Below, one piece after another: positions 12,271 to 53,995 of a DNA stretch of 64,000 nt (position 1 is the stretch's first letter; each line of letters begins with the position of its first letter). Source of the DNA: Thuidium tamariscinum (taxonomy: Eukaryota; Streptophyta; Bryopsida; Hypnales; Thuidiaceae); assembly GCA_947034885.2 (NCBI GenBank), contig OX344753.2, positions 8,928,001 through 8,992,000 on the forward strand, written 5' to 3'. The translations under genes were made by a program, and so were the position numbers. The notes under the pieces are model-generated. The model saw only the letters and a program-made list of their open reading frames with translations. It had not been told where the DNA came from and did not search any database.

Positions 12271-12278
12271 TATGTAAA
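12271..12278. repeat. 8-bp target-site duplication, left (TATGTAAA)
   Basis: It abuts the CAGGG terminus at 12279 and is identical to 20605-20612, which abuts the CCCTG terminus at 20604. Eight bases is the length typical of hAT insertions. Confidence 0.9.
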
Positions 12279-12640: not shown

Positions 12641-12752
12641 CCTCAACCTTGGGTCTTAGGGGGGCTCATAGTGTCCTTTAACATTCATATATTTATTGGG
12701 ATTCAGGTTCGTGTACCTACAACGTCCTAAGCGAATTTGAGAGATATCTTCA

Positions 12753-14130: not shown

Positions 14131-14134
14131 TTGT

Positions 14135-14560: not shown

Positions 14561-14645
14561 GGATTCCACAAGTGAAAACTTGACATTGGATTCCACAAGT
14601 CCAAATTCAACATTGGGTTCCTAGAAGTCATATTTAAAGCTTTAA

Positions 14646-15598: not shown

Positions 15599-15747
15599 TT
15601 AAAATGGGAAGTGTTGGAAAAAGCATCCAATGAACAATGTATGTGTGAAATTGAGTTTCATTATGCACATTTAAAGAAAGTAAGTCCTAAACCCTACACC
15701 CTATCCGAATAGCATCGACGTCCACTTCTGTAGAGTGTAGACAAGCC

Positions 15748-15784
15748 CAAACCCTAAACCCTAAATTCTAAACCCTAAACCCAA
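15748..15784 (+). repeat. Interstitial telomere-like repeat (AAACCCT)n
   Basis: About five units of the plant telomere heptamer (CCCTAAA), one degenerate (AAATTCT), in the spacer of the inverted repeat. A second short match (CCTAAACCCTACACCCT) lies near 15688. Confidence 0.8.
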
Positions 15785-16267
15785 GCTTCTTCATCATTTT
15801 TGTATTATGGGTGTCATACAAAATAATAAATAGTGAAAGTAAATTGATGAATGATCCAAGGATTCAACACATTATTAATTAAAAAAATGTATACACCCTA
15901 CTTTAATAGAAAAAATATATATTCTTTACATATTTCTAAATGCAAACTAGTAAGGGATAAAATTATTTGAAGTACACTCCTTTATATTCACATTCACAGA
16001 TTCACTTACATTCAAATGAAAGATTCAATAATTTTTCACATTTTCAAATTTTTTTCCAAGTATAATTGCATCATTTTCAAATTTGACTCATCCTCTTATG
16101 CAATCTTGAATGTCATCATCTTCCAACTGTAGAATTGTAGAAAGTATGGTGATACATTTTTCTAATTTGTTTAGAAGTTGAAATATTAGGCCCTTACAAG
16201 TTACAATTTGAGAGTTGAGAATGTCTTGCAATAAAATATGGTTATAAATCTCTCCCTATATTGTTAA

Positions 16268-17637: not shown

Positions 17638-19531
17638 TTAAAGCTTTAAATATGACTTCTAGGAACCCAATGTTTAGTTTTCACTTGTGAAATCCAATGT
17701 TGAGTTTGGACTTGAAATCTGAGCGGTCTTCGGCGGAGGTTAGTCGGTCGGCAGGGCGGACGCCTTTGTCGGACGCCCACTCGGTCGTTAGGGCGGACGG
17801 GCAAGGCCAAAGGGCGGACGCTGGGCGGACGGCGAAGTTAGTAGGGCGGTCGACACTCGGCAGGGCGGACGGGCAGGGCCAAAGGGCGGACGGCGAAGTC
17901 AGTAGGGCGGTCGACACTCGGCAGGGCGGACGGGCAGGGCCAAAGGGCGGACGGCGAAGTCAGTAGGGTGGTCGGCACTCGGCAGGGCGGACGGCGAAGT
18001 CGACAGGGCGGACGCTGGGTGGTGGCAAGGCGGACGAGGACATCGGAAGGGCAGATGCATAGCGGGGTTGTCGAACGCCAGGTCCAGCCGACAACTTCCG
18101 AGGCGGATGGGCCTGTCGTCGGACAACCCGAGGCGGACGCCAAAGGTCCGACAATTGAACATATCTCCTAAATTCCTATCCTTTTCAATTTCAATTTTTC
18201 TTGAAAATCCCCAAATACTTCCAATGCATCCTAATGAAGCATATTGACATTTGAAGTTGGATAAGTCACCTCCAATTTTGTTTCTTTTTGGGTTGTAAGT
18301 CAAAACCATCAAACAATTGTACAAAATTTTAAAAGTGTCCTTTGCTTTTGAAAATTTGCAGGTAGGTGTCCTACATCATGCCAAGCATGTATAAAAAAAT
18401 TTAGAAAATTTTATTTGCCCATGCAAAAGTTGTGGCAAATATACTAAATTGTGACTAATGTGACTAATGCCCCAAAGAGCATTAGTCACATTAGTCACAA
18501 TTGAACATATCTCCCAAATTTCTAGCCTTTTCTTTTTCAATTTTTTTTGAAAATCTCCAAATACTTCTAATGCATCCTAATGAAGCATATTGACATTCGA
18601 AATTGGATAAGTGACTTCCAATTTTATTTCTTTTTGGGTTGTAAGTCAAAACCATCAAACAATTGTACAAAATTTTAAAAGTGTCTTTTGCTTTTGAAAA
18701 TTTGCAAGTAGGTGTTCCACATCATGCCAAGCATGTATAAAAAAATTTAGAAAGTTTTAGTTGCCCATGCAAAAGTTGTGGCTAATATAGTAAATTGTGA
18801 CTAATGTGACTAATGCCCCCAAAGAGCATTAGTCACATTAGTCACAATTGAGCATATCTCCCAAATTCCTAGCCTTCTCAATTTCAATTTTCTTTGAAAA
18901 TCCCCAAATACTTCCAATGCATCCTAATGAAGCATATTGACATTCGAAGTTGGACAAGTGACCTCCAATTTTATTTCTTTTCGGGTTGTAAGTCGAAATC
19001 ATCAAAAAATTGCACAAAATTCTAAAAGTGTCCTTTACCTTTGAAAATTTGCAAGTAGGAGTCCCTCATCATGCCAAGCATGTATAAAAAAATTTAGAAA
19101 GTTTTAGTTGCCCATGCAAAAGTTGTGGCTAATATAGTAAATTGTGACTAATGTGACTAATGCCCCCAAAGAGCATTAGTCACATTAGTCACAATTGAAC
19201 ATATCTCCCAAATTCCTAACCTTCTCAATTTCAATTTTTTTTTTAAATCTCCAAATACTTCCAATGCATCCTAATGAAGCATATTGACAATTGAAGTTGG
19301 ACACATGACCTCCAATTTAATTTCTTTTTGGGTTCTAAGTCTAAGCCATCAAAAAATTGCACAAAATTTTAAAAGTGTCTTTTGCTTTTGAAAATTTTCA
19401 AGTAGGTGTTCCTCATCATGCCAAGCATGTATAAAAAAATTTAGAAAATTTCAATTGCCCATGCAAAAGTTGTGGCAAATATACTAAATTGTGACTAGTG
19501 TGACTAATGCCCCAAAGGGCATTAGTCACAA
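17101..19531 (-). repeat. Right arm of the 2.43-kb inverted repeat
   Basis: Reverse complement of 12753-15183. It holds the mirrored 347-bp units with hairpins near 18448, 18794, 19141 and 19488, CGGACG island 3 and the outer half of a TTAA element. Transcription across both arms would give a long, nearly perfect double-stranded RNA. Confidence 0.9.
17724..18153. repeat. CGGACG island 3 (inside right palindrome arm)
   Basis: Repeats of GGCAGGGCGGACGG and CGGCGAAGTCAGTAGGGCGG, the reverse complement of island 2 with small changes in repeat number. Confidence 0.85.
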
Positions 19532-19533
19532 AT

Positions 19534-20120
19534 GACAAAATTCCTTTTGCGGGGTCCTGAAAAATTCATGGCAGTTTTAATTAAAATCATGACATAGACA
19601 AATTGTGATTCAAAAATGTCATTAATCCCAAAAGGATCCCCCAAATGCACTTCAAAATACAAAATACTTGTCCCCAAAGGAATGTCAAAAATCAAAATCT
19701 TCATCATTAATTGTTTTTGAAGAAAACCAACTTGTCGATCTTTTTGTTAACTTTTTCAAGTAATCAAGTACATTGTTCCAAACTTTTATTGTAAATTTCC
19801 CCACCAATTGCAAGTTCAATGTGCCTAAAATTGCCCACTTTTTCAATTGTACGCTACTTGTACATGTTGCTTTTTGTAGCCTTTAGCAATGTACAAAGGG
19901 TGTACATTGCAGGGGTGGGCGTTTTCAAAGCCCTATGCCCTTTCAACTTCAAAAATTCATAACTAATTCCACAAAACTTCAAAAATTATAAAACAATTTC
20001 AGTTAGATGTCAACTCCACTTGTCTTTCAAAGGCAATTTACTGGAAAAAATTTTAAGACGTTTCCCCTCCCCAAAATTCAGTTTCAGCTCTTAAATGGTC
20101 AATTTATTGACTAGTTACCT
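19534..20120 (+). repeat. hAT-family internal segment, shared with 43655-43940 and 53340-53780
   Basis: It begins AAATGACAAAATTCCTTTTGCGG and runs through a TTAATCCCAAAAGG motif (19622) to CTAGTTACCTTATACGG. Nearly the same sequence lies at 43655-43940 (first half) and 53340-53780 (second half). It contains a short inverted pair around GTACATTG (near 19893-19905) and no coding frame. Confidence 0.75.
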
Positions 20121-20161
20121 TATACGGTGAAAAGTTTTAATTTTTTTTCAGACATTCTCAT

Positions 20162-20604
20162 CAGGGTCGATGCGGACGCCATCACGGACGCGTGGCGGAC
20201 GCGGTCGGTCAGAGTGGACGGCAAGATGCAGTCACGGCGGACGGGATCGCGGTCGTGGCGGATGCCAGCGGTCGGGGCGGACGCTGAGACAGGCGCAGCG
20301 AACGGGACCTCCAACGCCAGCGGTCGGGGCGGACAGGCGGTCAAACGAGACCTCCGATGCCGGCGGTCGGGGCGGACGCTGAGACAGGCGCAGCGAACGG
20401 GACCTCCAACGCCAGCGGTCGGGGCGGACAGGCGGTCGGACGGGACCTCCGACGCCGGCTGCCGGGGCGGCCGTCCGCCTCTGTTTTTTACCGGGCGCAC
20501 TAAATAAGGAAATTCAAATGTCACAGGACGTCCGCGGGGTGCCGGACGCTGGACGCTGGACGTCCGGACGCGAACGCGGACGCCCGAACGTCCGCACAGC
20601 CCTG
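20162..20604. repeat. CGGACG island 4 (right subterminal array of hAT-type copy 1)
   Basis: GC-rich array of GCGGACGC and GGTCGGGGCGGAC units. A CAGGGTCGATGCGGACG at its left edge looks like an additional TIR, perhaps a nested or rearranged end. It closes with CGTCCGCACAGCCCTG at 20604. Confidence 0.85.
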
Positions 20605-21333
20605 TATGTAAATAATACCATCATTGCACACACACGTGTACTGTAGGGACTGTAGATCAAAGGGTTTGACTGTCGACAATAGCCGAGAGGTCATCGTGCT
20701 CCACATACGGGAAGTAGAGTTATAAATCCTTGTGTCAATGTCCACGTTTGCCTCGATAAGTTTGAAAGAATAAGGCTTAACTTTAGTATCAACCATAAGA
20801 CCACAACATGTAATCGACTTAGATTGCGGTGGAGGAGGAGGAGGAGGGATGACTTGCCAGGTTAATGTGTGTACGTTAAAAACACCTCTCTCCTTAAAAT
20901 CCATTGGGTTATGACATAGGATTAATCCTTCCGTCTCAAACGGTGAAACATGTGGATCTGCTCTAGCGTCCTGGAACCACCTACTGTCATTGACAAGAAC
21001 TAGGGGAAAGTGGTGCGGCTTGATGCTGAATCGGCGAGAGGCAATGTCATAAGTAACAATCCCGTTCACGTAACGGAGCGCAATAGGATCAATAACCGGG
21101 GTGATATTGACAAACAAAGGCTTCGGCAGCGTTCTGAAGTTCAAGGCATAATTGTACCATTCCTTGCATACAAGGCGCAAGCGGAACAAATCACCTCGGC
21201 AGAGCTTGTCACAGATGAGCCGGAGAGGGATGTGGTCTTGTAGTTTGCCCCAAATATCTGCATTGGTAAGCTCCATATCTACAACGTACATTAAGAATAT
21301 ATGGTCAGCTTTGTGTAAGTACTCCAATTGCAT
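20605..21333 (-). pseudogene. F-box protein, 5' half (split by hAT-type element)
   Basis: The frame has an F-box near residues 20-60 (MELTNADIWGKLQDHIPL, DKLCRGDLFRLRLVCKEWY), followed by a C-terminal region of the F-box-associated/kelch kind (GLILCHNPMDFKERGVFN, LTWQVIPPPPPPPQSK). A start at 21276 (MELTNADIW) suits the family better than the upstream ATG at 21333. The frame is intact to GIIYI, where the hAT-type element begins at 20604. Past that point the frame reads only terminal repeat. The product would be an SCF substrate adaptor; as it stands it is truncated at about 243 residues. F-box identity is firm, substrate unknown. Confidence 0.85.
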
Positions 21334-21648
21334 GTTAGTTCAAATTTAGTTCAATTAAATTCATTTGTGAATAATCATCCAATAAAAATCAACTCAAATT
21401 AGAATTCAAAGTGCAGAAAAACAAATTTGCAATGCAGTGATAGATCAAGAAACATGTTGATACCGAGGAGCCGCAGACGAGGCGCATCCAAGAAACATGC
21501 ATGAATAATTGTGAATCACGATGCACAATTTTGATGCAATTACTGCGAGAACGTACACACAATGCAATTTAGAAACAGAGCTACCATCATGACGACTCCT
21601 AACCGTTCAATTGCTAATGCAATTTCAACTCACAGAGACGATAAACAA

Positions 21649-21975
21649 AATTTCTACTACAACCTGCTCACGTACCGCCCAATCTGCAACACTCAAAACC
21701 TCGAAGCTAGCCTTTGCGCACCTCACTTTTGACAATACTTGATTGACAGCAGACTGTACTAATTCAAAATGCAAGTAGGTCTAGATCGATAGAGCAACGC
21801 CATGAGTATCTCAAACTATTTCAACTACAACCTGCTCACATACCACCCGATCTGCAACACTCAAAACCTCGAAGCTAGCCTTTGCGCGCCTCAATTTTGA
21901 CAATACTCAATTGATAGTAGACTATACTAATTCAAAATGCAAGTAGGTCTAGATCGATAGAGCAACGCTATGAGT
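21649..21975 (+). repeat. Tandem duplication upstream of the F-box gene
   Basis: Two units of about 165-175 bp share AACCTGCTCAC.TACC.CCC, then CTCAAAACCTCGAAGCTAGC and AAATGCAAGTAGGTCTAGAT. It lies 5' of the F-box gene (minus strand), so it may sit in its promoter or leader. No coding frame. Confidence 0.8.
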
Positions 21976-22809
21976 AATTGAGTATCAAATTCAGTGAAGG
22001 AAGCATAGGAATTCGAAGTCAAAAACCAAATTCCTTGATGAGCCCAAGCCCGGGTTTAAAAGAGGAGAGTTCACTTCACGAAATTCAAATTCAAATGTTC
22101 CAATAATTTAGCACTCAACTCAATAGTTTAGATAGTTGAACTCAGTTGAAAGGAGTGAGAGTTAGCAATAGGGTAATTAACATTATAGGGGACATAACAC
22201 TAATTAAATTTCATGATAATTGTATTGAGTCTATATTCTTGAGGCAAGCAAATTGCAAAATCTTTAGAAAAATAAAAGTGGTGTTTTCATTGTTTCCTTT
22301 GTTGTGATGAAATTCTTTTGGTACTCTTTAAGTAACAAAAGAAAGTGACATACATTAATTGTCACTAATTAAATTGCAAAATTATAATAAGTCAAAACTC
22401 TTTGCATGGATAGATTGCAAAATCTTTAATTGTTTTTTATTTCTTTTGATGGAACCTCTTTTGAAGGCAAATAAAGATAAAATCCTTGAGATAATTTGAT
22501 AATATTTGTGAACTTCCTTAAGACCAAGTATTCAAATGAAAACAAAGGATGAACACAATGCAAACTAAAATGCATTTTCTCATCCGTCATTTTTTTAAAA
22601 GATTCTTGAACTAGTTCTTTATCACTAAGCGCTTAAGCAACCATATTTTGGTTAGTGCCTAACTTTGGGCAGATTTTTTGGATAGAAAACAACATTTTCC
22701 CAAATTATTATTATTATTTTTAAAACCTTGGGCTCTCTTTCAACATTTATATTCAAAACTAAAATCAATTTAGTCAAACAAAAATTATAAAAGAAATAGC
22801 ACAAAGACT

Positions 22810-37190: not shown

Positions 37191-38434
37191 TAATTTGTTT
37201 AGAAATTGTTATATTAGGCCCTTACAAGTTACAACTTGAGAGTTCAGAATGTCTTGCACTAAAACATGGTTATAAAATATAAATCTCTCCCTTTATTGTT
37301 AACCCCTAAAGGACCAAGGCCATTTTTTTGTTACAAACCACTCAGAACTGTCATTTCTGCTGCGTTCACTATAAGAAAACCAAGAAAATACTTTTCTTCG
37401 GATCTAACCTTAGGATCTTGTACTTTACTTATCTAGGAAAAAGTGGCAAAAATATTAGATGACTTTGATTGCTATTCGTGGAATTTTTTGGAACTATGGA
37501 GTACGGAGTATGGACCTTGAATTAAAATTTTTGAAGGAATTTGAAGAACTTGGATGGGAGTTGAAAGTCTAAGACGAAAATTTCACGAAAAATAGGCTTG
37601 ATTTTCATTATTCCAAAAATTGTTAAGTACAAGTAAGTCCAAGATTGAAAGAAAAACTAAATCATTAATAGCTCTAACATGGGATTCAAACACAATAACC
37701 TCAATGGTGAGATTGTTCTAGTTTTTTTCAACCCCTCGTCCCTTATTTTCAATATTTTGAGTTCATTGGATCATAAATGTTGTTATTGCCTTATTGGGAA
37801 TCAATTGTGAAAAAAATTACATTCCATGGAAGTTAATCAACTTTTTTATCTTCTGAAGAAGTTTGTAAAAACTAAAAACGAGGATCAAATTTGAAATTTC
37901 AGCCCGTAGGTACTACCACAAATCCCATGTTTCCCCACAAGGGCCAAAAGTGAATGATCCTTTAGGATTCCAACTTTCAATTGGAATTTCATTAAATTTG
38001 AATATTCCTTTGTCATAGAAGGTGTGTTACTATGTTTGGAGCAATTTGAATCACCTGAATTTCAACAAATGATATTGACAATTTCCAATATTTAAGACTA
38101 GTATCATTATAATTTCCTAGAATTACAAATTCTTCCAAAAGAAATTAATTTTTGTTGAAATTGAAAACGTACTACGGTAATATAAATCATTCCTCTCTAT
38201 CAGGTCCTAAGGTGAATTTTGGATAGATATAATTTGAACATTGAAACCTAAAGTCATAGTTATTCCATGAAGTGTTCAAATTCCCCAAAATGCATGCAAA
38301 TTGCAAAGAGAATCTAGCATTTATTTCTGATTTTCGAGAAGATTCAACATCAACTTGGCTAGTTTCAAAACCTAAACCAATGTAAACTGCTTACTCAATG
38401 AATTTCAAGAATTCAAGTATCGATGTAGGTCTTT

Positions 38435-38760
38435 CAGGGTTTCAAACCCCCCGCCCGTCCGTCTGCTCTTCCGTCGGTGCCCCGTCCGCCCCTCTTTGCC
38501 CCCGTCCGCCCCTTGGTGCCCCGTCCGCCCGTCGGTCGGTCCGTCGCTGCGTCCGCCTCCGACAGGCGCCGTCCGCGTTGTCCGTCCCTCGGTGAGTCCG
38601 CCTGCTGTCCGTGCGATCCAGCGGACGCCGATTTCTATCCGCTGGATTCTGGCGTCCGCCTCTCTGCCGTCGGATGAGCATCTGGCCGTCTGCCTCGGTG
38701 GGGGGCGGACAGCTCAGCATAAGAAGCGGGGCGGACGGCTCATTTGGCCACAACCGTTTC
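38435..38760. repeat. CGTCCG island 5, upstream of gene at 39020
   Basis: CGTCCGCCC repeats starting with CAGGG at 38435. Followed by a leader, CATTTGGCCACAACCGTTTC, that is alignable with the leader behind island 7. No matching right end or duplication (AGGTCTTT) was found. Confidence 0.8.
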
Positions 38761-39019
38761 CCTCCGGAGTGGACGATCCAGTGGCCGATTTTAATCTGTG
38801 GCTCTGCGCGTCCCTTCCGACGTTGTGTGCAAACGGTTGTGCTTCATTAATCATCACTAAAATGCTTAACGAACTTTAGTTGAAGTAATGATCAGGCTCT
38901 GAGGGACTACAACTTCATCTAAACTGCATCGCATTGTAACTTTGAAGCATTTCGATTTCTTATTGCTGGAATTAGTATAAACGAAGTCATCAGTTGCTCT
39001 CATTTTAGTCAACGCCACC

Positions 39020-40093
39020 ATGCCTCGTGATGAAAACAAGAAAAATAAGGGGAAATCCCAAAGCATAAATTGGGATGATTGGAATGATCTAATGTGTGTT
39101 GGTGAACCCGGATGGGAGAGTGAACCAAAGAAAGTTTGGACCGCCACTACGTGCAAGAAGTACGTGAAAATGACGCACATTGCCAAATTGTGGGCATCGG
39201 ACCGTGCAGCGCAACAAGTTCGCTATTGGGAAGGGCAGACATCTACGTGTCTCAATAGGCACTTTGTTCACCGATACGATGAAGTGACGCGTAATGCTGG
39301 TATACGTGACTCCAAACCAAATGTCATGAATTATACAAACATGGCCATGGTCTGAGCAGAGATTGTACTTCACAAAGATGTTGATTGGCGCACAATATAT
39401 AGAAAAGATGTGGCGACTCTCAATCGCAACGAAGCAGTCATTTATACGAGCTGGACTAATGCAAGCGATTGTATGCCCGAATGGTCCAATCGAGGGCAAT
39501 TTGGATTTCCTGCAACAGTGATGCTGGATGCAGACGAGCCCGTCCAAGATGATGATGATGATGTTGAAGAGGCTACTGCACCCGTGGCCGGTGGAGAGAG
39601 GCATGAACGTAGAGAAGCTCGAGAAGACATTCAATACGAGCATGAAATGCGTGAGGCAATGCGGAGAAGCATAGAAGATCGTGGTCCACAATATGGTTAC
39701 GATGGGTACTATGGACGTGAACGTGGTACACATGACCCACGAGGTGGGCAGAGTGGTTCTCAAATCATAGGAGGAAGCCACAGAACCGCACACAATGCTC
39801 CTTCTACCCAAGAAGGCTCCCAATACCATTCGAGGTCTAGTGGAGGTGGTTCATATGGAAATTATGGGCATCATGGAGGGTCTTACCATGGCCGTTTAAA
39901 TGAAGGAGGCTCCTACTATGGAGATTCAGTTCCTCCTCCAACCTTTGGAGGGCCTCATTACGGGAATTATGGACAAGGAGGAGCGGGAAGCGGAGCAGGA
40001 GATGTGTACGGTGGAGGACCATATATGGGGGTGTATGGATCTAGTTCTGTAGGCCATAGTCAGAGAGATGATACTGACTCAGATTCCGAGTGA
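39020..40093 (+). pseudogene. UIM-like, Gly/Tyr-rich protein gene, copy 1 (one in-frame TGA)
   Basis: A single-frame gene of 357 codons, broken only by a TGA at 39353-39355 (residue 112). The sister gene at 44979 has TGG (W) there. Layout: basic Lys-rich start; a conserved domain of about 150 residues (MCVGEPGWE, TTCKKYVKMTH, TCLNRHFVHRY, NVMNYTNMAMV, VIYTSWT, CMPEWSNRG) with Cys/His spacing (C-x7-H, C-x3-H) that might bind metal; an acidic linker (QDDDDDVEE); a helix EHEMREAMRRSIED at residues 207-220 that fits the ubiquitin-interacting-motif pattern; a Gly/Tyr/Ser-rich tail (PPPTFGGPHYGNYG); and an acidic end DDTDSDSE. I do not recognise the N-terminal domain. The start GCCACCATGCC is a strong initiation context. 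Conservation of both ends between copies suggests past selection. Confidence 0.75.
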
Positions 40094-40617
40094 AGTACAA
40101 CAAAAAGACTACACTCTTGTAGTGACTAGTCCGCACTACGGTGTAATGATTGTAATCCACTGCCATGTACCGTAGGTGGTGGCAAGCATGGTATTGTAAT
40201 GTTGGTGAGGGGTACTCACGAACCTATAAGTATTTATGAAAATACAAATTTTTGAAATGCGTGAATACAATACTAGATCTATGGATGGGACCTTTGACCT
40301 GTAGTATTAAAATTAACCAATGTGTAGCTCTTGTTATTTTTTAAATACGAATATTGCATCAGAATGTTTTTCCCTATTTTCTAGTACTCCGATTACAATG
40401 CCTCCTCGAACTTATATTTGAAACATAGTTTTAACAACTTAGAATTGTGAAGTAGAATTTAATAAGCTAAAAACTTGATTGGGGTTATGCTTGTTATGCC
40501 TTTGAACCTAATATTATTTTGATGACCCATTTTGAAAATTGTGAAAATTGTCAAGGCAATACTTGGTCATTTAGGGGTTAAAAGAAATATAAAACTTACA
40601 TGTTAGTTTATTTAAGT

Positions 40618-40782
40618 TTATGAGAATAAAATAAGAGAGGCCCTAATTACTCATCCGTAGTCCAAAGAGGTTGAATGAAACTTTCACATGTGTTTTTTTT
40701 CCTATGTGATCTCTAGCATGTCTATTTAGAATTTGTATGAGAATAAAATAAGAGAGGCCCTAATTACTCATCCGTAGTCGAA
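40618..40782 (+). repeat. 43-bp direct repeat pair
   Basis: The sequence starting ATGAGAATAAAATAAGAGAG and ending CATCCGTAGTC occurs at about 40620-40662 and again at about 40738-40780. Non-coding. Confidence 0.8.
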
Positions 40783-40817
40783 ATTCAATGACATTCCAGC
40801 TTCTCCAATTGTTTATG

Positions 40818-41245
40818 ACATTCCAACCTCTCCATATTTTTTTTGGCCCGTCTTCACGTGAAATTTGAAATGAATAGGCCATTTACAAAGTAGACCCAAA
40901 AATGGCTACGTGGCGTATTTTTTGAAATAAAATCAAAACTAGACAATTTCAAATGTGGAATGGAAATTTGTCATAGAACATAAATGTCCTATGACATTCC
41001 AGCTTCTCCATATTTTTGTCGACCCCTTCTCACGTGAAATTTCAGATGAATAGGGCACTTAGCAAAAAACTCCAAATATCACAATGTAGCCTATTTTTTG
41101 GAATCTCACAAAAAGTAGGCAATTTCAATTTCTGAATGGAAATTTGTCATAGAATACAAATGTTCTAAGAAATTTCAACCTCTCCATATTTTTTTGGCCC
41201 CTCTTCACGTGAAATTTCAAATGAATAGGCCTTTTACAAAGTAGG
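40818..41245 (+). repeat. Tandem repeat, about 175-bp unit, 2.5 copies
   Basis: Units begin with ACATTCCA.C.TCTCCATAT near 40820, 40992 and 41167, and contain TCACGTGAAATTT and ATGAATAGG. The array stops where CGGACG island 6 begins. Confidence 0.75.
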
Positions 41246-41249
41246 CCGT

Positions 41250-41545
41250 TGGATTAGGCGGACGGCACCCGCCCGATCATGGTTGTTCGTCAGATCGATC
41301 GGACGGCGGACTTCCCGTCTACCCGATCGGGCGGACGCGTTTCCGACGTGCATTGCGTCGGCGGACGGGCTGCTGCCGTCCGATCACACGGACGCCCAAT
41401 CCCACGACCATCCGATGTCGCGGACGCCCGATTGCGCGGACCCGTGCGCGCCGTCCGATCGATCGGACGGCGGCGTCGGGGCCGTCCGCACAGGTTTAGG
41501 GCGTCCGCCAGGGTGTAAGAGGGGCGGTTTAGGCCGTCCGCCCTC
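41250..41545. repeat. CGGACG island 6, upstream of the kinase-like gene
   Basis: GC-rich array with mixed CGGACG, CGATCGGACGG and CGTCCG. No clear CAGGG terminus or target duplication was found, unlike islands 1, 4, 7 and 8. It is followed at 41577 by GCGGAGTGGAAAGCTTAGTG, alignable with the leader of gene 1 (CCGGAGTGGACGATCCAGTG). Confidence 0.75.
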
Positions 41546-41705
41546 ACTCTTGTTTTCTCCCTTGCATTTTGCACGCGCGGAGTGGAAAGCTTAGTGGCTT
41601 AAGTTCTTAAGTCTCCATTGGTTCCCTTCCAAGGGAAAGCAAGGGTGACATTATTGGGGCCCCCTTGTTGCTTTTTTTTGAAGTTTTCACGTGATTTTTA
41701 TCATG

Positions 41706-43205
41706 ATGGCACGAACCAAAAAGGTGGGTAAAAGGAAACTAGAGGAGGATGCAGGTCCATCTAAAGAGGAGGCACGTGCAAACAAGCCCTCTGAAGTATT
41801 GAATAATATGATGATTAAAGTGATCGTGGACTTCTATGAATCGGAGAGCACGATGTCCTTGCAGATGAAGTATGTTCGCTACAATGAGGACTGTCCTAAA
41901 AAATTCAAGGACGACATGTGGCGACGGTTTATGGATGCGGTTTCTGTTCCACAATGGCACAGTGAGATGGATAAGAGTGGCTTTTAGCAGTTTTTGAAAA
42001 ATAAGGTGCATGACGCGTTGTGGAATGCGAAGGACATCTTAACGAAGTATGGGAAGCATCGCCGTCAACATGATGCCGCATTTCAGCAAGTCATTCTAAG
42101 GGCTGAATTGTTTGTCGGCCGATGTACTCCATTCGCGTCTGCCAGGAACAAACGAGGATCTATGGGTTGGTGGAAAATTAGTGATGGAATGGTTGAATTG
42201 ACGGAAGGCAGGAAGCATCTAATAGCACTTCTAGACACGGCAACCGTGATTTCTTGTGATGATGTCGTGACCAAAGGCGGATACGCAACAATTCGGAGGG
42301 TGCAAATTCAGGGATGCCGTGAAATACCTGAGTATTGGGAGTTTGCAGCAAAGCTATCTAATGTATAGCAGACGCTACCTCATCTTGCAAAGGCGGAACA
42401 CCAAAACGAGTCCATGGTGGTGCGGATTGGCCATCCCGGAGTGATACGGTTTGCTACAGTTCATACAAGGAGGAATGAAGGATATGCATATTGGTGGAAT
42501 GGCGGGACCTTGCGGAAGATGATGCATTTGGATAGAATTTATCCAGACAATATACGTATGCACTTGAAATATAGCTCGCCAACGGATGCGGATGTCATTG
42601 CCACGGACCATCTTGCACGATTTTGGAAGAAACATACGGAGCTAGCATGGGCGTTGTTGCATATCATGCATGCGGTGCACGATGCAGGATATTTGCACAA
42701 TGATATCTCACTAGACAACATTATGTTGTACTTTCCCGCGGACGAGTCGCGCGTGTACATTGGAGTGTGCGATTGGGGCATGACTTCGTACGTTACAGAA
42801 CCATCGAAGTCATTGTACGTGTTCACATCCGAACAAGAGATGGACGCTGCTTTGCAAAACCGTTGGTGAGTGACAAAGAAGATTGCATATTTGCACGAAA
42901 AAGACAAAAATGTGCAAGTAATTCCAAGTTTATCCATTGCAACGGAGGAGTACGCGGTGTGCAAAATAGCCATGGCAATTAACAGGGATTGCATGTCAGA
43001 GGAGTACCACAAGTTGAACATGGAAACGGCAAGCATGAGCAAATTTGATCACCAAGCGTTGGCAATGTCATTTCGTGTGTACTTGGAGCGCCCTTGCAAA
43101 GACGGCCCGGAGAATGCGGGCGGTTTGGCACGCATCATCAATCGTTGGACCAGTACTTTCAACTGGCCAATTCCCAATGAACACTTTCGGCGTTCGTATG
43201 AATAG
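41706..43205 (+). pseudogene. Protein-kinase-like gene with three in-frame stops
   Basis: One frame of 499 codons, interrupted by TAG at 41985 (residue 94), TAG at 42366 (residue 221) and TGA at 42867 (residue 388), with no frame change. Start at 41706 (MARTKKVGKRKLEED), a basic nuclear-type N-terminus. The kinase fold is shown by GGYATIRR (glycine-loop-like), HLARFWKKHTELAWALL, HNDISLDN at residues 331-338 (catalytic loop, HRDxxxxN replaced by HND...N) and VCDWGM at residues 356-358 (DWG in place of DFG), then an APE-less C-lobe. The catalytic Asp, Asn and metal-binding Asp are present, so activity is conceivable, but the VAIK lysine is not obvious. The first 200 residues are unrecognised. 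All three stops would be tryptophan if they are TGG changed to TAG/TGA. Confidence 0.7.
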
Positions 43206-44329: not shown

Positions 44330-44337
44330 GAAAAAAT
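44330..44337. repeat. 8-bp target-site duplication (GAAAAAAT) of hAT-type copy 2
   Basis: It abuts CAGGG at 44338. The identical GAAAAAAT at 52484-52491 abuts CCCTG at 52483. Confidence 0.85.
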
Positions 44338-44775
44338 CAGGGATGACGGGATGTCCGGACGTCCACGGGACGTAGGCGCTAACCCTCGGACGTCCATTGA
44401 CATTTGAAATTTTGTTTCTGTACGTCCAACGGACGGACGACCAGACGCTTCCGCGGATGGCATTTCGGACGGACAGAGTGCGGACGGGCACGCCGCCGGC
44501 TTGCGGACGCGCGGACGGGTTGCAAACGGACTGCGGATGCATTGCGGACGAGCGGATGGTGCGGAGAGCGTCCGCAGTCCGTTCGCACTCTGTCCGCCCG
44601 TCCGCAGTCCGCCGGCACACCGTCCGCAGTCTGTCCACACTCTGTCCGCAGTCCGTCCGCACCGCCGAATCCGACTGGCGATCAATTCTGGCCACACGAT
44701 CTTCCGTCCGCGCTGAATGCCGTCCGATTTTGATGGAGACGTCGCCCGCCGTCCGCGAGTATAAGTAGCATCGCG
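44338..44775. repeat. CGGACG island 7 (left subterminal array of hAT-type copy 2)
   Basis: Repeats of GCGGACGG and TCCGCAGTCCG. Around 44569 the orientation of the motif switches from CGGAC to GTCCG. It ends near a possible TATA element, GAGTATAAGTAG. Confidence 0.85.
44755..44767 (+). promoter_or_regulatory. TATA-like element of the gene at 44979
   Basis: GAGTATAAGTAGC lies about 215 bp before the ATG, at the edge of the CGTCCG island. It is followed by the leader shared with the 39020 gene. Promoter role is inference. Confidence 0.4.
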
Positions 44776-44978
44776 GACGGCTCATTGAGGCACAATTGTT
44801 CGCCTTCCAAAGTGGGTAATCCAGTGCCTCAAGCTCTATGAGCCCCTTTCAACTTGGTGAGATGGTTGTGATTAAAACTTGAATACTTTCATAGTATTGA
44901 GTTTTAATTATTATTTGCTTTTGCGGGCCCCAAAATTCCCATCACCCTAATTCTGGACTTTGGGGTAATTTTATTACC

Positions 44979-46055
44979 ATGCCTCGCAACGATAAACCAA
45001 AATCCAGTTCCAAGGGCAAATCCCAAGACATGAATTGGGAGGATTGGGCAAACCCTTTGTGTGTAGCAGAACCTGGATGGGAGGAGGAGCCGAAGAAATC
45101 TTGGGACTGCACAACATGCAAGAAGTACGTCAAAATGACGCACCTCTCAAAAATGTGGTCAAGAGAACGTGCTGAAAAACAAGTTTGTCGTTGGGAGGGA
45201 CAAATTTCGACGTGTCTAAGCAAGCACTTTGTCTACCGGTATGAGGAAGTCACACAGTCAACTGAAATACGTGACTCCAAACTAAATGTGATGAACTACT
45301 CCAACATGGCCATGGTTTGGGCGGAGATTGTGCTCCACAAAGATGTGGATTGGCGCACAATTTATGGCAAAAATGTCCACCAACTACATCGTACTGATGC
45401 TGTTATTTATACGAGTTGGACTGGTATAAGTGATTGTATGCCAGAGTAGTCTAACCGAGGCCAACTTGGATATGTGCCGGTTGTATTGCCGGATGCTGAG
45501 GATGATTGGGAGGAGGAGGAGGAGGAGGAGAAGGATGCTTCAACGCTTGTGTCATTTGGAGAGATACCTAGGCGTAGACAAGAACGCGAAGACATCCAAT
45601 ACCAGCAAGAAATGCGAGATGCAATGCAACGAAGTCTCGAGGATCGTGGTCGACCACATGGGCATCATGGATCGTATCAACATGACCATGGTGTTTATGG
45701 GACCCAAAATCGCCAAACTGATCCACACTATAGTAATGACCCTCGAGGTGGCTATGGCAACTACCAAGGTAGCCAAGGAACCACACATGATTATGGTTCC
45801 AACCAAGGTAGTTCTCAGTACTATCCTGGATTCTCTGGAAGTAGTTCTTATAATGATACATGGCACAGGGGATCTCAGCGTGATGATTCAATTCCTCCTC
45901 CAACTTTTGGAGGACCTTACTATGGAAATTATGGGCATGGAGGTGCATCAAGCGGATCTGGAAACATGTGGGGTGGTGGACCATTTCTCGGGACTTTTGG
46001 ATCTGGTTCAACTGGCCCAACTTGCAAAGATGACACCGATTCGGAATCTGAGTGA
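44979..46055 (+). pseudogene. UIM-like, Gly/Tyr-rich protein gene, copy 2 (one in-frame TAG)
   Basis: Paralogue of the 39020 gene: 358 codons, with one TAG at 45447-45449 (residue 157) where the sister has W in CMPEWSNRG. No frame change. It shares the N-terminal domain (CVAEPGWEEEPKKSW, TTCKKYVKMTH, NVMNYSNMAMVWAEIVLHKD), an acidic run (DDWEEEEEEEKD), the UIM-like helix QQEMRDAMQRSLED at residues 209-222, a Gly/Tyr/Ser-rich tail with PPPTFGGPYYGNYG, and the acidic end DDTDSESE. It lies 640 bp inside the left end of hAT-type copy 2 and reads inward. Upstream, its leader is alignable with that of copy 1, and about 250 bp downstream is also similar. Function unknown; a role in ubiquitin recognition is inference from the motif alone. 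Confidence 0.75.
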
Positions 46056-46335
46056 GGGAAAAAAATTTGGAAGATTGTAGCGAAACAATGGTTGCTTTAA
46101 AATAGAAATATAGTAATATGCAATCGATTTTTGTATATTCTTGCCATAGGATACAGATTGGCATAAGGACGATATGAGGATGTTCGCCATTTTTTGAATA
46201 CAAATTTTGAGTACGCCTATTTGTAAATTCCGATCCAATTATGTCCCATTTTCTTTGTGAAGCTTCTATACTGCCTCCTTATTTACGAAGCTGTGAGTTT
46301 GTGTGTTCATTATGTTTGCCCCAAAAACAAATTAA

Positions 46336-49300
46336 CCCCTAAGTTACCAAGGCATTTTCTGGCTGTGAAACCACTGAAAACTGCCATTTCTGCTGCAATC
46401 ACTCAAGAAACCTAAAAACACTTTTTTTCTTAGAATCTAACCGTAGGATCTTGTACTTCACTTCTCTAACAACATGTGGTAAAAATTTCATGAAGTTTGA
46501 CACTTTGACCGTACGGATTGGAAGGTATGAGCATTCAAAGTTGGAAAACAAAGTTTTTTTCAACTACGCCCTGCAATTTCAGGTGACTTTGATGGCCATT
46601 TCTGGATTTTTTTTGCACTACACACCATGAGGTCAAAATTTTTTATCTTGAACATTTGAGTTGAGAGTTGGGGATAAAAATTTTACAATGCCAAAACTTG
46701 ATTTCCACATATAAAAAAATTGTTAAGTAGAAGTAGGTCCAAAGTTGAACAAAATACTGAATTCTTAATAGCCCTTGTATTGAATTAAAAAATCATAATC
46801 CCAACAGTGGGATTGTTCTTGAAAACAAACTTAAGCTTTTAAAAAAAAAATTGGTAAGAATTTAAAATTGCATTCAAAAATGAATTCTACAAGTTGTTTT
46901 TTGAAGAAGATGCGTAGATTGCCCAAAAAACAAGACTATCCATAACTTTTTCATTATTAGTCCAAATAGGATGAATCAAAGCTTCAAATGTACACAAAAA
47001 CCTAATCTTGCAGCAGAAAAATTGAAAAAACAAAATTTCATTTCTTTGAGGTTTGTTTTTCTTGCCTGCCGAACTGCTTTTTTGACTTAGGATGGCAAAA
47101 CTTCTGCTCCAAGGCACCGATTGGAAAAAAAAAATTTAGAAAGCTCATGTCATTCCCTATCTTCAAAAAAAGTTTCAAAAAAGGAGGTCAAAATTCCAAG
47201 TCACACGAGCCTACCAGAAAGTTCAAGTGTCCCCCGAGGAGACTTTGGAACTCTAGATGTTAATATGTGGCTATTGCAATTTAATAATAACACTTTGGAA
47301 ATGTGACCATTACTCAAAGGATTTTCGGCATGCACTAATGAATTTCTAAATGCTGAGGTTTATATAGGGCCTTTTAGGATTTGGAAATTGGAATACCCTC
47401 AACCGTTTATTAAGTAAAACAAACTCGGAAGACCAAAATTTCCATTCTTGAATGTAGTACCCCATTTTAGGGGTAAAAAAGGGCACATACAACCGTAGAA
47501 TTATGTATTCAATTAGTTCAAAAACATATGCAGAACATTTTAAGAGAATCCTTCAATTTCCAAGATTATTTTTCATCAAAAATAACTCTAAATTTCCATT
47601 TTCAATGCCAATCTCATAATATAAGAAAAAAATTGGCATATACAATTGTAAGATTTTATACTACGATGCCATAAAAAATTTGAGAAGAAATTTCAAAATC
47701 TTTGACCTTCTTAATCACAATCAAGACAGAAGTGTTGAAAGTAAAGAAAATCAGTTCCGTGTGTTTTTAAGTTCATTAGATAATAAGGCTTTCAATCCTC
47801 TTAATTCAAACATTTTGTACTAAAATTGTTAATTAAAATTTTTTTATATCAAAGAATTGAATTGAAGATATGCAGGAAAAAAAATGCAATTTCCTGTTGT
47901 TATTTTCATTCATCACAAAAAGTTTAGTGAAAGTACATACTACAGAAGTGAACGGAATGAGTAACTAAATTGGTGATAGGTCTTGCATCAAATTGAAACA
48001 CATGAATTCCAATGGTGAAACCGTTTTGAAAAAAAAGAACTAAACCTTATGCAATTCTCTATTCAACTATTAAAATGGATGTAATGCATCTTCTTCTCAA
48101 AAGTTTACTGTGATTGCTTGAAAAACAAGAAGATTCATAGCCGTCACAGCACCTTATCCAATGAAAATAAATTAAATTTCTCTACGTAGAAAAAAATGCT
48201 ATTTTAAAAAAAAATGTAATTTTAAAAATCATTCATGTTTTTCTTTCTATTGCCTACATTGGGCCTTAGGGGGAATAAATTTTCTCTCAAAATACAATTG
48301 AAATAAAATTATATTACCAAAAATCCAATCAATTTTTCCATATAGAAAAAAGGCCCAAAATTTGTTGCCACAAACTTAGCTGAAGTGTACTTCTTCAACA
48401 CTTCAATACCCCAAACCTTCAAAAGTCCTTGAATATATAGGACTCCTCAGACTGATGGAATTAGTACTTTAGTAGATCTGCACATTGTTTTTTTTTAACA
48501 AATAATGAACAAGTTCAAAAGGCCGATGCATTTTGAACCCCTATAACCCCAACGGGTTAGGACAAAACACAAATGTGTTATAAAATATAAACATTACGAT
48601 TGTTTTGAAGTTAGTATCAAAGAAGAATTAGAAGATAACGTAAAGCACAAAAAATAGACACTATCCATCTAGTCAAAGTAAAAAAATAATTCAGATTATT
48701 TTTAAATGAATGTTGAATATAAATTTTCAATAACTCACCAAAAATACAATTTCTATTTTTATGGTTTGAAATTCTTTTTGATTGGTCTAAATTTTGTTTT
48801 TTATTGACTTATAAAGAAATGCAAAATATTCAACCTCTAACAGCACAAGGTATTAAGACAAAATACGAATGTATCATGAAATATAAGATTTACAACATTT
48901 TTGAAGTTAGCATCAAAGAAGACAATGTATAGCACAAAAAGTAGAAAGTACCCATATGATCAAAATCAAAAAATATTTATAGATTCTCTTCAAATGAATT
49001 TTCAAGATATAACTTCAAAAACTCACCAAAAATACAATTTCTATTTTTAGGGTTTGAGATGCAATTTGGTTGGTCGAAATTCTGTTTTTTATTGATTTAC
49101 AAAAAATTGCAAAATCTTCAACCTCTAAAAGGAGTGAAAGCCCAATGTATTAACACAAAATATAAATGTGTTATGCAATATAAGATTTACAACATTTTTG
49201 AATTTAGCATCAAATAAGATAATGTAAAGCACAAAGAGTAGAAAGTACCCATATGATCAAAATTAAAAAATATTTATAGATTCTCTTCAAATGAATTTTC

Positions 49301-49967
49301 AAGATAGAACTTCAAAAACTCACCAAAAATACAATTTCTATTTTTAGGGTTTGAAATTCATTTTCATTGGTCTAAATTCTGTTTTTTATTGATTTATAAA
49401 GAAATGCCAAAAATTCAACCTCTAAAAGCCCAAGGTATTAAGACAAAATACAAATGCGTTATGAAATATAAGATTTACAACATTTTTGAAGTTAGCATCA
49501 AAGAAGACAATGTAAAGCACAAAAGTAGAAAGTACCCATATGGTCAAAATTAAAAAATATTCATACATTCTCTTTAAATGATTTCTGAAGATATAACTTC
49601 AAAAATTCACCAAAAATACAATTTCCATTCTTAGGATTTGAAATTTTTTTTCTTTAGTCAAAATTGTGGTTCTTATTGCTTTGTTAAAAAATAAATAGTA
49701 TTTATCAATGAGAGCCTCAGTACTTCTTCCAAATAGTAAGTTCCTCAACACTAAGCAATTTTAGACACTTTGTACTATTTCTCCTTTTTTTGGCTATACC
49801 TTTTGTTTGATCGTATTGATCTTAGTTTTGAATATCAATGTTCAAATGAAACCTAATTTTTTCAAAACCGGGAAGAAAAAAGGTCAAAAAAGTTTTTTTT
49901 TGGGTTTAGTAAATTTTCCCGAAGTAAAGAAGAACTTTTGGAAAATGATCGTTTGAGCAATTAGGGG
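46336..49967. mobile_element. TTAA-flanked element nested in hAT-type copy 2
   Basis: TTAA at 46332-46335 and 49968-49971. Ends are CCCCTAAGTTACCAAGG and (reverse complement) CCCCTAATTGCTC. The left part matches the 16268 and 37303 elements (GGATCTTGTACTT, TGCCATTTCTGCTGC). The large size comes from a tandem array inside. Confidence 0.55.
48533..49690 (+). repeat. Tandem array, about 290-300-bp unit, four copies
   Basis: Units begin near 48533, 48838, 49133 and 49421 and share AAATATAAGATTTACAACAT, AAGATATAACTTCAAAAA and ACAATTTCTATTTTTAGGG. Non-coding and AT-rich. A single divergent copy lies at 22810. Confidence 0.8.
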
Positions 49968-50354
49968 TTAATGTAGAAGATTGTTCCAAAGTTTTAAAAC
50001 CTGTCCTCTTCAATCAATTGAAAAAAAAAAAAAAAAAAAAATTTCCAATGTATTTCACAATTTCGAAGGAATTTCAAAGAAGAAACCTTATGAACATCAT
50101 GAACATTCAATCTATAATCAATTTAAGAAGGATTTCCCAATTATTAATGTTCAATTTTATTTTAAAAATCTAATTGATATAGCAATAGAGTTATCGATAT
50201 GGCTGTAACCATGGGTCATACTTTAAAATTTTAAACTAGAAGTGACACATGTAACCCTAAGATCTTCTAGTGCACTAATTGGGGTCTTGGGGAAGATGTA
50301 CACAAAATTCCAAAAAAATTAGTAAGTCCCATAAGGCCATAACGTTCATCTTAC

Positions 50355-50831
50355 ATGTTTGGTCTACGTTCGCTGAAGTCATCGGATCGATCACTTTCTT
50401 TGGGCGCAAATGAGATCATCATTCCAAGCGGATCAAAAGCAAGACAACCAGCAATGAAAGAGTCCAAGAAAGCTAGAAATAAAAGAATATTGGAGGCCTT
50501 TGCAAAATCACCATCGAAGCGGCAAAGTCTAGGTCGAACCCCCCTTGATGTATGTGAACCTTTTTCACAAAGCAAAGTGAAACCGGTTAATGGTCTTGAA
50601 AAAGGGATTGGGAAGTCTACACTAGGAGGTAGAGACATGGTGAAAGAGAAAAAGAAGGGTAGACACAAGAGATCGCTTGCATCAAAGCAAATATCCGGAA
50701 GAAAAGAGCGAGCTCTACACTTTTCATCCGATAGTATGGAAAGCACAAGTAATGAAGAAGACTCGGAATGGGATTCAAGAGGTCATAGTAGTGGAACTGA
50801 GGTGAGAGGAGACGTTGATTACAAGCCTTAG
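50355..50831 (+). CDS. Unrecognised basic, Ser/Lys-rich protein (158 aa)
   Basis: An uninterrupted frame with protein-like composition, unlike its AT-rich surroundings. It has basic clusters (KESKKARNKR, KEKKKGRHKR) that look like nuclear-localisation signals, many serines, and an acidic C-terminal part (SSDSMESTSNEEDSEWDS). No domain recognised. It sits about 1.65 kb from the right end of hAT-type copy 2 and reads toward that end. It may be the last exon of a longer gene carried by the element, or a short gene of its own; the ATG at 50355 is simply the first in the frame. Confidence 0.5.
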   Translation: MFGLRSLKSSDRSLSLGANEIIIPSGSKARQPAMKESKKARNKRILEAFAKSPSKRQSLGRTPLDVCEPFSQSKVKPVNGLEKGIGKSTLGGRDMVKEKKKGRHKRSLASKQISGRKERALHFSSDSMESTSNEEDSEWDSRGHSSGTEVRGDVDYKP

Positions 50832-51299
50832 AAATTAAAGGAATGTAGACTTAGGTGTTTAGATATTCATGGTACATGGAGCTTGTAATGGAAATGGTTT
50901 GTTTGAACCTTTGAAAGTAATACAAGTTTTCATGCGCATGTTGGAAACGTCACTATGATTTATTGATTTTTGATTTCTTGGTTTCATGGTATTCAAAAAT
51001 AATGAACAAAAATTAAATTGTGACAATGTTTGATTCGTGGATATGGTCATATGGACGAAACATGATAAGGTAGGTGGCTCGAATTGCGACAGTCTATTTA
51101 GAAGCATCCCTATAAAAAGCTCTGAAATCGACCTTTACTGGTTTTGAAATGGACCCTAGACATTGTCAAAGCCTTATAAGGTTTGTTAGGTGTTGGTTTA
51201 TACAACACATATGGTGTAATAACAGACAGGGTGGGTCGATTTCAAAATAAGAGTGGACACAAGACAAGTGTCCATTTCATTTCTGCAAGAAAAACATTA

Positions 51300-51866
51300 T
51301 CAGCTGAACATCCTCTTACTAAAATGCCTCTCAGTCACTTATAACTTCTTGGATTGATATGAAATTTTAGATACACAAACTAGACTAGTAGGCGCACCTT
51401 TTCCAACAATTTTTTTTGGAAACGGACATTATATGAAGAAGTTATAAGCCGCAAAAGTTCATTGTGATCCAAGAATGTCGGGACTTTGAATTTTGAATTC
51501 CTCCCAAACATTCAAAACAATTCGGATTGACATGAAAATTTTACGACAATAATTAGGCTTCAAGGAAAACATAACCCAACACATTTTTTTGAAAACTAAC
51601 ATTTGATGAAAAAGATATAGGCCCCTGAAGTTGAAGCCATCTCAATGCAGTTTGGTGAATTCAAATTGAACTTGTGAACTTTGATTGACTCCCAAGAAAT
51701 CAGTATAACTTAGATTGTTCTAAAATTTTTATCACACAAACTAGAAGAGAGTGTGCAAATTTTCCAACAAGTTTTGTTGAATTTGGAAATCGGATACAAA
51801 AGTTATAGCACTTTCAATTGGACTTAAAAGTATATGAAGACAATGTTGGTTTTAGGGCTTAATTTT
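51300..51866. repeat. Partial copy of the 35.6-kb TTAA element
   Basis: It aligns with 35960-36520 (ACACAAACTAGACTA, TGAAAATTTTAC, AACTAGAAGAGAGTG). Its right edge TTTTAGGGCTTAA is a decayed family end; the left end is missing. Confidence 0.6.
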
Positions 51867-52244
51867 AGTAAAGGTCACATTTAGGAACGTGAAGTATTAC
51901 TTTTTGAGCGCTTCATTGCTTGTTTTTGGTCAAGCCATGGTTTTTTCCAGACTGCGCATGTGTGGGTTTTGCAACTTGCAAGACCTAGAATCACAAATAC
52001 ATACCTATGCTAGAATTCTTTGAAAACATAAGTAATTTATAAATGCTTGGAAATATATGAAACCATTTGGTTTAGATTTCGGCATTTTGCATCAATGGTT
52101 CTTTAAATGAAAAATAAGGGGAAATATTTTTGGGCATCTTCAACCCATCAAAAAAACCGAACAGCCCTTAAAGGGTTGCTTTTCAAGCCATCTACCTTAC
52201 ATGTTATTTGAAAACCCTAAATCCAGAAATGCAATCTCAAGTTG

Positions 52245-52483
52245 TCGACCGCCCGCTCATCCGTCCTCCCATCCGCCGTCCCGTCCGTCGTCCGCAGTCC
52301 CATCCGCCCGTCCGCAGTTCGGTCCGCCCGTCCGCAGTACCGTCCGCCCGTTTGCCCGTCCGTAGTTTCGTCCGCTGCTCCGTCCAGCCGGTCGCCGAGG
52401 ACAGCGTCCACTACGTCCACTAAGTCCGGACGTCCGTATTTTGGACGTAATTTTGCCCTGGACGTAGCGATTCGTCAACCCTG
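52245..52483. repeat. CGTCCG island 8 (right subterminal array of hAT-type copy 2)
   Basis: Repeats of CCGTCCGCCCGTCCGCAGT. The final 70 bases mirror the left end of hAT-type copy 1 (ACGTAATTTTG, GTCCGGACGTCCG). Confidence 0.85.
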
Positions 52484-53339
52484 GAAAAAATTCGAAATAC
52501 TTTCAATTTCTTCTAGAGGTACAAGTATAAATGGAGATCACTATATAAAATTTTCAATTTGCCTTTAACAAATTTTGAACCAAAAACTACAATAACAAAG
52601 ACCTCAAAGTCAAATTTGGCTATTAAAGAAAATTAAATTTTTGATTTTATACATTATCAAGAGAAATTCTATTGTAAAATTCTACTTTCTACATATTCTA
52701 TTTTTCTACAAATTGCTTGATGAAAACTACATATTATTGTAATAATTTTAAAGTAAAAAGTTAAGAAAATTATATCAATTATACTATGTATTGGAATAGT
52801 TTGAAATTTTCACCATTAATGAATGTTAAATGGAAAACTGAATTTTGCAATTGAAATTAAAGATTGATCTTAAAACGAAAAAATATGAATGAAAAAGACA
52901 ATGTATTGTGTTTGACGGATTTCAACACATAGAACTTGAAATTGCAATAAATTTTTCAATTTTTGGAATTTTTCAAAATTTTAAGTTGAAATAAAAAGAA
53001 AAGTTTTCAAGCTTCATTTTCTTATTTTAAGTCAAATACCAAAATGGCTATGTTGAAAGTTAGAATCAAAGTTGAACAAGGCACATCCACTTTTTTTATG
53101 CCTAAATTTTAGGGGTTAATGTGGAATCAATGTAACCACATAAAGATGTTGTTTTCAAGATTATTATTATTTTATTATTTTCATCATTATTTTAGAATTA
53201 TTTTAATACGATTTAATATTCAATGTTTTTACTAGTAAAATTTAAATTTCTCGAATTTAGAAACAAAATTATTAATTTTTTTAGTATCAGTTTAATAGGG
53301 TCATTTGCCATCATTGATGACTACTGACTATTAACGCTT

Positions 53340-53995
53340 AAAGGAATTATAAAATCAAAATCTTCATCATTAATTTTTTTTTTAAAAACCAACTTGTTGA
53401 TCTTCTTGTTAACTTGTTCAAGTAATCAAGTACATTGTTCCAAAAATTAATTATGAATTTCCCCACCAATTGCAAGTTCAATGCGCCTAAAACCGCCTAC
53501 TTTCACTACTTGTACATGTTGCTTTTTGTAGCCTTCAGCAATGTACAAAGGGTGTACATTGCAGGGGTGGGCGTTTTCAAAGCCCTATGCCCTTTCAACT
53601 TCAAAAATTCATAACTAATTCCACAAAACTTCAAAAATTATAAAACAATTACGATTAGATGTCAATTCCACTTGTCTTTCAAAGGCAATTTACTGGAAAA
53701 TATTTTAAGACGTTTCCCCTCCCCAAAATTCAGTTTCAACTCTTAAATGGTCAATTTATGGACTAGTTACCTTATACGGTCGATGCGGACGCCATCACGG
53801 ACGCGTGGCGGACGCGGTTGGTCGGAGCGGACGCTGAGACGGGCGTAGCGGACGGGACCTCCGACGCCGGCTGCCAGGGCGGCCGTCCGCCTTAGTTTTT
53901 TACCGGGCGCAGTAAATACAGGAAATTCAAATGTCACAGGACGTCCGCGGGGTGCCGGACGCGGACGCGGACGCCTGGACGTCCGCAAAGCCCTG
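53340..53995. mobile_element. Solo or truncated end of the hAT-type family (copy 3)
   Basis: It matches 19690-20604 of copy 1: the CTAGTTACCTTATACGG segment, then a shortened CGGACG array (island 9), then TTTTTTACCGGGCGCA, and ends CGTCCGCAAAGCCCTG at 53995. Forty-odd bases present in copy 1 (20129-20165) are missing here. The 8 bases after the end are GTTCCTTC; no partner end with that duplication was found in the window. Confidence 0.7.

Follow-up and report, generated by a model that had tools for sequence, protein, structure and literature searches.

The 8.1-kb element described here, which we call copy 2, lies in a window of 64,000 nucleotides of the moss Thuidium tamariscinum and is best explained as a non-autonomous element that arose by internal deletion from a multi-gene hAT transposon of 22-23 kb, a reading to which we assign a probability of about 0.87. 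The window is the whole stretch of DNA analysed (C5:8928001-8992000 of a 363-Mb genome in 19 contigs), and the same genome was used for the genome-wide searches. Long relatives of copy 2 carry a UIM-like gene, a protein kinase gene, a RING-H2 gene and a hAT transposase gene. The case draws on ends, target-site duplications, transposase domains, a deletion, a gene order and a signal of selection that can be read at the level of the sequence, and from it we infer that copy 2 may be mobilised in trans and that the full-length element may carry an accessory module.

Copy 2 occupies 44338-52483 (8146 bp), has CAGGG/CCCTG ends and is flanked by the perfect 8-bp duplication GAAAAAAT, much as the initial annotation had described it. 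A boundary scan, requiring CAGGG and CCCTG ends that agree at 10 or more of 14 bases and lie between perfect 8-bp target-site duplications, returned two elements in the real window, copy 2 and another that we call copy 1, and none in 300 block-wise first-order Markov resamples; the resampled windows thus exclude a chance origin of these boundaries. The parts of copy 2 are as follows.

44330-44337: left target-site duplication, GAAAAAAT
44338-44447, plus strand: type B end (CAGGGATGACGGG...), common to the right end of copy 1 and a lone end at 53886-53995
44338-44800: GC- and CpG-rich subterminal/promoter block (GC 0.63, observed/expected CpG 1.44), with a TATA-like TATAAG at 44760
44338-47001, plus strand: left arm, in collinear alignment (92-93%) with that of the long copies
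44979-46055, plus strand: decayed UIM-like gene of 358 codons and a stop, with an in-frame TAG at 45447-45449
47002-47962: insertion relative to the compared long copies; collinearity stops at 47001 and restarts at 47963
48530-49692: tandem repeats of about 296 bp, more than in the long copies
50355 (good to a few bases): deletion junction, with about 14.3 kb gone (kinase gene, RING gene and most of the transposase gene)
50355-50831, plus strand: last 158 residues of the hAT transposase and its stop
51587-52483, plus strand: right arm, collinear with that of E18, the 22.6-kb copy
52394-52483, minus strand: type A end (CAGGGTTGACG... reading inward), common to the left end of copy 1 (12279-12368)
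52484-52491: right target-site duplication, GAAAAAAT

The UIM-like gene of copy 2, already recognised in the initial annotation, has 58 relatives at E <= 0.001, the best of which (P0001) is 91% identical and uninterrupted. A genome search with P0001 gave at least 114 scored UIM matches out of 1080 first-look candidates, and sorting by hand placed 80 of them in the subfamily of copy 2 (subfamily 1) and 34, at 56-58%, in subfamily 2. A second, older UIM-like gene of the window is missing from the scored matches, and the 114 is therefore a minimum. Given this many genomic copies, the gene is no one-off capture. Among the 80 subfamily-1 rows, counted by hand, 49 lack a stop (one of them partial) and 31 contain stops.

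From these 80 loci we extracted 20, at 9.9 kb each, hand-picked from stop-free rows and spread across contigs. The type B end precedes the UIM-like gene in all 20 and runs to the terminus in 18, of which the 16 that start at CAGGG have 16 different 8-bp flanks (the starts of L016 and L024 were misplaced by 8 bases in the script and fall outside this count). The initial annotation had considered that other copies might share the ends and never the gene; the extracted loci have the type B end together with the gene, and the gene recurs in many copies, though copy 1, the other complete copy in the window, is without it. A convergent kinase match is present in 18 of the 20, with a kinase frame of at least 480 residues in 13. 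No type A end was found within the 9.9 kb of any of the 20 loci, and the copies were therefore suspected to be longer.

Three of these loci (L018, L017 and L021) were extended to give the long copies E18, E17 and E21. By its coordinates E18 measures 22,597 bp from its type B end (CAGGGATGACGGG) to its type A end (CAGGGTTGACG), and it is flanked on both sides by the perfect 8-bp duplication TAAATATG. Its genes are ordered UIM-like (plus), protein kinase (minus), RING-H2 (plus) and hAT transposase (plus), and E17 and E21 are 98.7% and 98.9% identical to it over 19 kb. All four frames are open in E17, where the transposase gene is read to its stop and encodes 1089 residues; the RING-H2 gene encodes 1105. 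The initial annotation's gene-carrying hAT family is thus real in the form of larger, four-gene copies, but the 8.1 kb it gave as the family's size is that of a deletion derivative. A GC-rich block stands before each of the four genes of E17 (observed/expected CpG 1.1-1.4), with values of 0.4-0.6 in two spacers.

From its type B end onward, across the UIM-like gene, copy 2 can be aligned with E17 and E18, apart from ~1 kb of additional sequence and a larger tandem-repeat array. At window position 50355 the alignment leaves E17 at about 6.18 kb and rejoins it at 20.47 kb. Beyond this junction copy 2 follows the transposase tail of E17 at 96.6% up to 51031, and 51032-51586 has no counterpart in the long-copy sequence read. 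The basic open reading frame previously reported at 50343-50831 is present, but it is not a separate gene: because copy 2 aligns across the junction into the transposase tail, the frame is a transposase remnant, corresponding to residues 932-1089 at 90.5% identity. By the same token, copy 2 holds no whole transposase, as had been noted, but retains the tail that lies behind the hAT C-terminal dimerisation domain. As a separate observation, E17 diverges from copy 2 soon after the transposase stop (L040, ~21.15 kb into E17), possibly through another insertion in E17.

The larger copies with an hATC transposase that the initial annotation had envisaged also bear on the question of superfamily. 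The E17 transposase scores 122.5 bits against PF04937 (DUF659; cut-off 34.7) and 34.4 against PF05699 (hATC; cut-off 21.4); no Pfam BED match was obtained at E <= 0.1, and a CxxC near the start is visible by eye. Copy 1, copy 2 and E18 all have perfect 8-bp target-site duplications. The plant hAT end pattern given in a plant survey, [T/C]AGNGNNG (PMC6027215), fits the four ends that copies 1 and 2 have between them, as well as the two of E18; a lone end at 53995 (CAGGGCTT) misses its last base. Two further features of the window bear on these ends.

12279-20604, minus strand: copy 1, with the same two end types and the target-site duplication TATGTAAA, inserted in an F-box gene
53886-53995: lone type B end, within 0.65 kb of copy-1-like sequence (53340-53995)

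The initial annotation had placed copies 1 and 2 in one family and noted a subterminal match in inverted orientation, and this is upheld. The right end of copy 2 matches the left end of copy 1 (type A) with a local score of 55, against 23 for the best of 500 shuffles, and the left end of copy 2 matches the right end of copy 1 (type B, 20474-20604) with a score of 44, against 26. Comparisons of type A with type B give scores of 25 and 18, and the ends are not plain mirror images; both copies have the two distinct types, in inverted order. The lone type B end has no type A partner within the window. Copy 1 splits a minus-strand F-box gene (11941-12278 and 20605-21339), and deleting it together with one duplication brings back a single F-box frame of 354 residues. 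Its interior gave no match to the UIM-like, kinase, RING or transposase genes; 12733-19535 consists of 2.4-kb inverted arms (92.7%) and ~347-bp tandem repeats, unlike the four-gene copies, and is perhaps a nested fold-back element.

The third gene of the long copies encodes a RING-H2 domain (PF17123, 32.0 bits, cut-off 27.0; PF13639, 31.4, cut-off 27.3), with the C/H pattern at residue 760, and a ligase role is predicted for it. A profile of the N-terminal domain of the UIM-like protein matches the RING protein at 110.6 bits, and the two N-termini are homologous. In an alignment of 34 UIM-like rows (32 of the 58 relatives and two window genes), Cys47, Cys79 and His83 are invariant, and His55 is kept in 32 of the 33 rows with letters at that site. 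The UIM-like motif, acidic-hydrophobic-xx-Ala-xxx-Ser, occurs in 30 of the 34, a 31st match (P0044) looking spurious. Pfam scans of six rows (the two window genes, P0001, P0007, P0040 and L017) gave zf-C3HC below threshold in three and nothing above cut-off. An AlphaFold model of the UIM-like protein has a confident small N-terminal domain and is otherwise mostly disordered (mean predicted local distance difference test score, pLDDT, 58.5); a fold search with it returned no match.

Outside copy 2, the window holds an older pair of genes of the same kinds.

39020-40093, plus strand: second, older UIM-like gene, with one in-frame TGA
41703-43205, plus strand: protein-kinase gene, with three in-frame stops (five over a longer match), lying 1.6 kb downstream of that UIM-like gene

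The two UIM-like genes of the window differ by a synonymous divergence (dS) of 1.14 and a nonsynonymous divergence (dN) of 0.28, a ratio of 0.25; shifted frames give about 1.1. Both, then, descend from a gene under selection, though each now has a stop. A tree of 33 UIM-like rows does not group the two into a single clade.

The window's kinase gene likewise has 58 relatives. Two of them, P0082 and P0088, are named as from the moss Ceratodon purpureus; another, P0064, is filed under a Bacilli metagenome bin on a 2.9-kb contig, and this assignment is probably wrong. In an alignment of 31 of these relatives with the window gene, the catalytic Lys, Glu, Asp, Asn and Asp are invariant in all 32 rows, and a model of P0059 has Foldseek matches to kinase domains (E 6e-8). 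PF07714 is barely over its cut-off in P0082 (23.2 vs 23.1), and the database's own annotation gives PF00069 for many of the relatives. Of 81 kinase matches in the genome, 80 were used for linkage; the one left out is a short fragment next to another match. A UIM-like gene lies within 12 kb of 14 of the 17 subfamily-1 kinases, always convergent and in 12 cases spaced 4.18-4.20 kb, and within 12 kb of 24 of the 63 subfamily-2 kinases, always in tandem; the chance expectation is about 0.0075 per kinase match. Two of the 63 are near a subfamily-1 UIM-like gene and arranged differently with respect to it; the window kinase beside copy 2 is one of the two. The window's older pair (39020-43205) is itself in tandem, as in subfamily 2, and no type A or type B ends were detected around it. 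As for the state of the genes, 11 of the 17 subfamily-1 kinase rows are stop-free, and the subfamily-2 rows with at least one in-frame stop (62 of 63 by hand count) often have one TGA and one TAG.

We propose that transposase from other copies would cut and paste whatever bears one end of each type, A and B, and that copy 2 would be mobilised in trans in this way. The UIM-like, RING and kinase proteins may form a ubiquitin/phosphorylation module, joined via the N-terminal domain common to the first two; the shared domain suggests that these proteins could meet or bind the same target. Such a module would benefit the element by acting on its transposase or on a host factor for silencing or repair, with a silencing factor or the transposase as the most plausible target. 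Judging from sequence, the accessory proteins are most likely a ubiquitin/kinase module that would aid the element in its host. The fullest form of this proposal, that a giant moss hAT lineage carries a ubiquitin-kinase module whose UIM-kinase core has been selected in at least two old subfamilies and serves to disarm silencing or control the transposase, we put forward tentatively, at slightly less than even odds. Recent spread of the family is suggested by the 49 stop-free UIM copies and the 98-99% identity of the long copies.

Two alternatives concern what copy 2 is. Its mere 8.1 kb, and the ~1 kb without match in the compared long copies, might recommend it as a small element of separate origin that picked up a UIM gene from the host and is unrelated to the 22.6-kb copies; its ends, UIM-like gene, much of its spacer, transposase tail and right arm are nevertheless collinear with those copies, which contradicts independence and makes this account hardly credible. 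The family might also belong outside hAT, to KDZ/Zisupton or some other superfamily that makes 8-bp duplications, since Zisupton and a Dileera family are described as likewise giving duplications of that length (PMC12730594). The DUF659 and hAT dimerisation domains above cut-off in E17, and the agreement of copies 1 and 2 with the plant hAT pattern (PMC6027215) at each of their four ends, render such an assignment extremely improbable.

A third alternative concerns the accessory genes, which could be passive cargo, taken up once from the host and carried along without serving the element. In favour, copy 1 has the ends and none of these genes, stops are frequent (31 of 80 subfamily-1 UIM rows, 62 of 63 subfamily-2 kinase rows) and 7 of the 20 loci have no kinase frame of 480 residues. 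Against this stand UIM-kinase adjacency kept in two old subfamilies (the window UIM genes being dS ~1.1 apart), the invariant kinase catalytic residues and dN/dS below 1 in both genes. For the kinase this ratio is 0.303 (78 pairs among 13 loci, not picked for kinase openness, though only frames of at least 480 residues entered) and for the UIM-like gene 0.387 (190 pairs among 20 loci), the pairs being close and non-independent. On balance we consider passive cargo unlikely. Several points nonetheless weigh against our reading of copy 2 as a derivative of a four-gene hAT element with a selected module. The UIM intactness and dN/dS are biased, the 20 loci having been hand-picked from stop-free rows. 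About 2.3 kb of E18 is unread (oriented 19,901-22,200, from the closing part of the transposase gene onward), and in E17 and E21 the sequence read stops short of the right end, so that no long copy was covered in full. E18 has a shortened RING frame, and the RING and transposase frames are interrupted in E21; among the three, no single copy combines both ends with four open frames. The Pfam UIM model matched none of the six rows scanned, and PF00069 was under its cut-off in all five kinase rows scanned. Among the matches listed, 39 of the 63 subfamily-2 kinases have no subfamily-2 UIM-like gene within 12 kb, and copy 1 has the ends of the family and none of its accessory genes.

The window holds other sequence of interest. 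The motif TTAACCCC occurs 10 times on both strands between 16264 and 53119 (mean 2.5 and maximum 8 in 300 resamples), and sequence bearing it has a counterpart between the UIM and kinase genes of the long copies. Candidate piggyBac (TTAA) units at 37299-40581 and 46332-49971, with inverted TTAACCCC motifs, were considered; all three long copies contain the corresponding sequence, and at least the candidate in copy 2 is therefore no recent nested insertion. The interval 5592-8168 contains, on the minus strand, TIR and NB-ARC (Pfam) and LRR-like (by eye) pieces of a resistance-type gene. A fragment at 29124-29381 matches Plant_tran (PF04827) slightly under its cut-off (21.7 vs 22).

Plant hAT elements are usually regarded as one-gene transposons; Ac starts with CAGGGATGAAA, and Ds arises through internal deletion. 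The family described here resembles Ac/Ds and other plant hATs in its 8-bp duplication, CAGGG-type ends, DUF659/hATC transposase and internally deleted copies, but differs in reaching 22.6 kb with three accessory genes. If our proposal is true, this hAT is a DNA transposon with a post-translational signalling kit, and, mosses being transformable, the role of each gene is directly testable. Among the top-ranked results of searches limited to open-licence papers, none described a hAT that carries RING, UIM-like and kinase genes, which is weak evidence of absence. The plant hAT survey records no hAT sequence detected in Physcomitrella (PMC6027215).

The nearest precedents that we encountered are transposons with chromatin- or DNA-modifying genes. 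According to one study (PMC12730594), fungal DNA transposons (hAT7, IS3EU, Kyakuja, Dileera and others) carry TET/JBP dioxygenases, and one of these lineages, IS3EU, also has an alpha-kinase gene. The likeness lies in a DNA transposon with accessory genes proposed to act against silencing; the moss family differs in its kinase, which has the usual protein-kinase fold, in its RING-H2 and UIM-like proteins, and in its 8-bp duplications, as opposed to 7 bp in hAT7. By the Pfam scans made, its four genes include nothing TET/JBP-like. The plant VANDAL elements (MuDR), as described in the same study (PMC12730594), are alike in that a non-transposase gene serves the element by regulating the element's own silencing; they belong to another superfamily.

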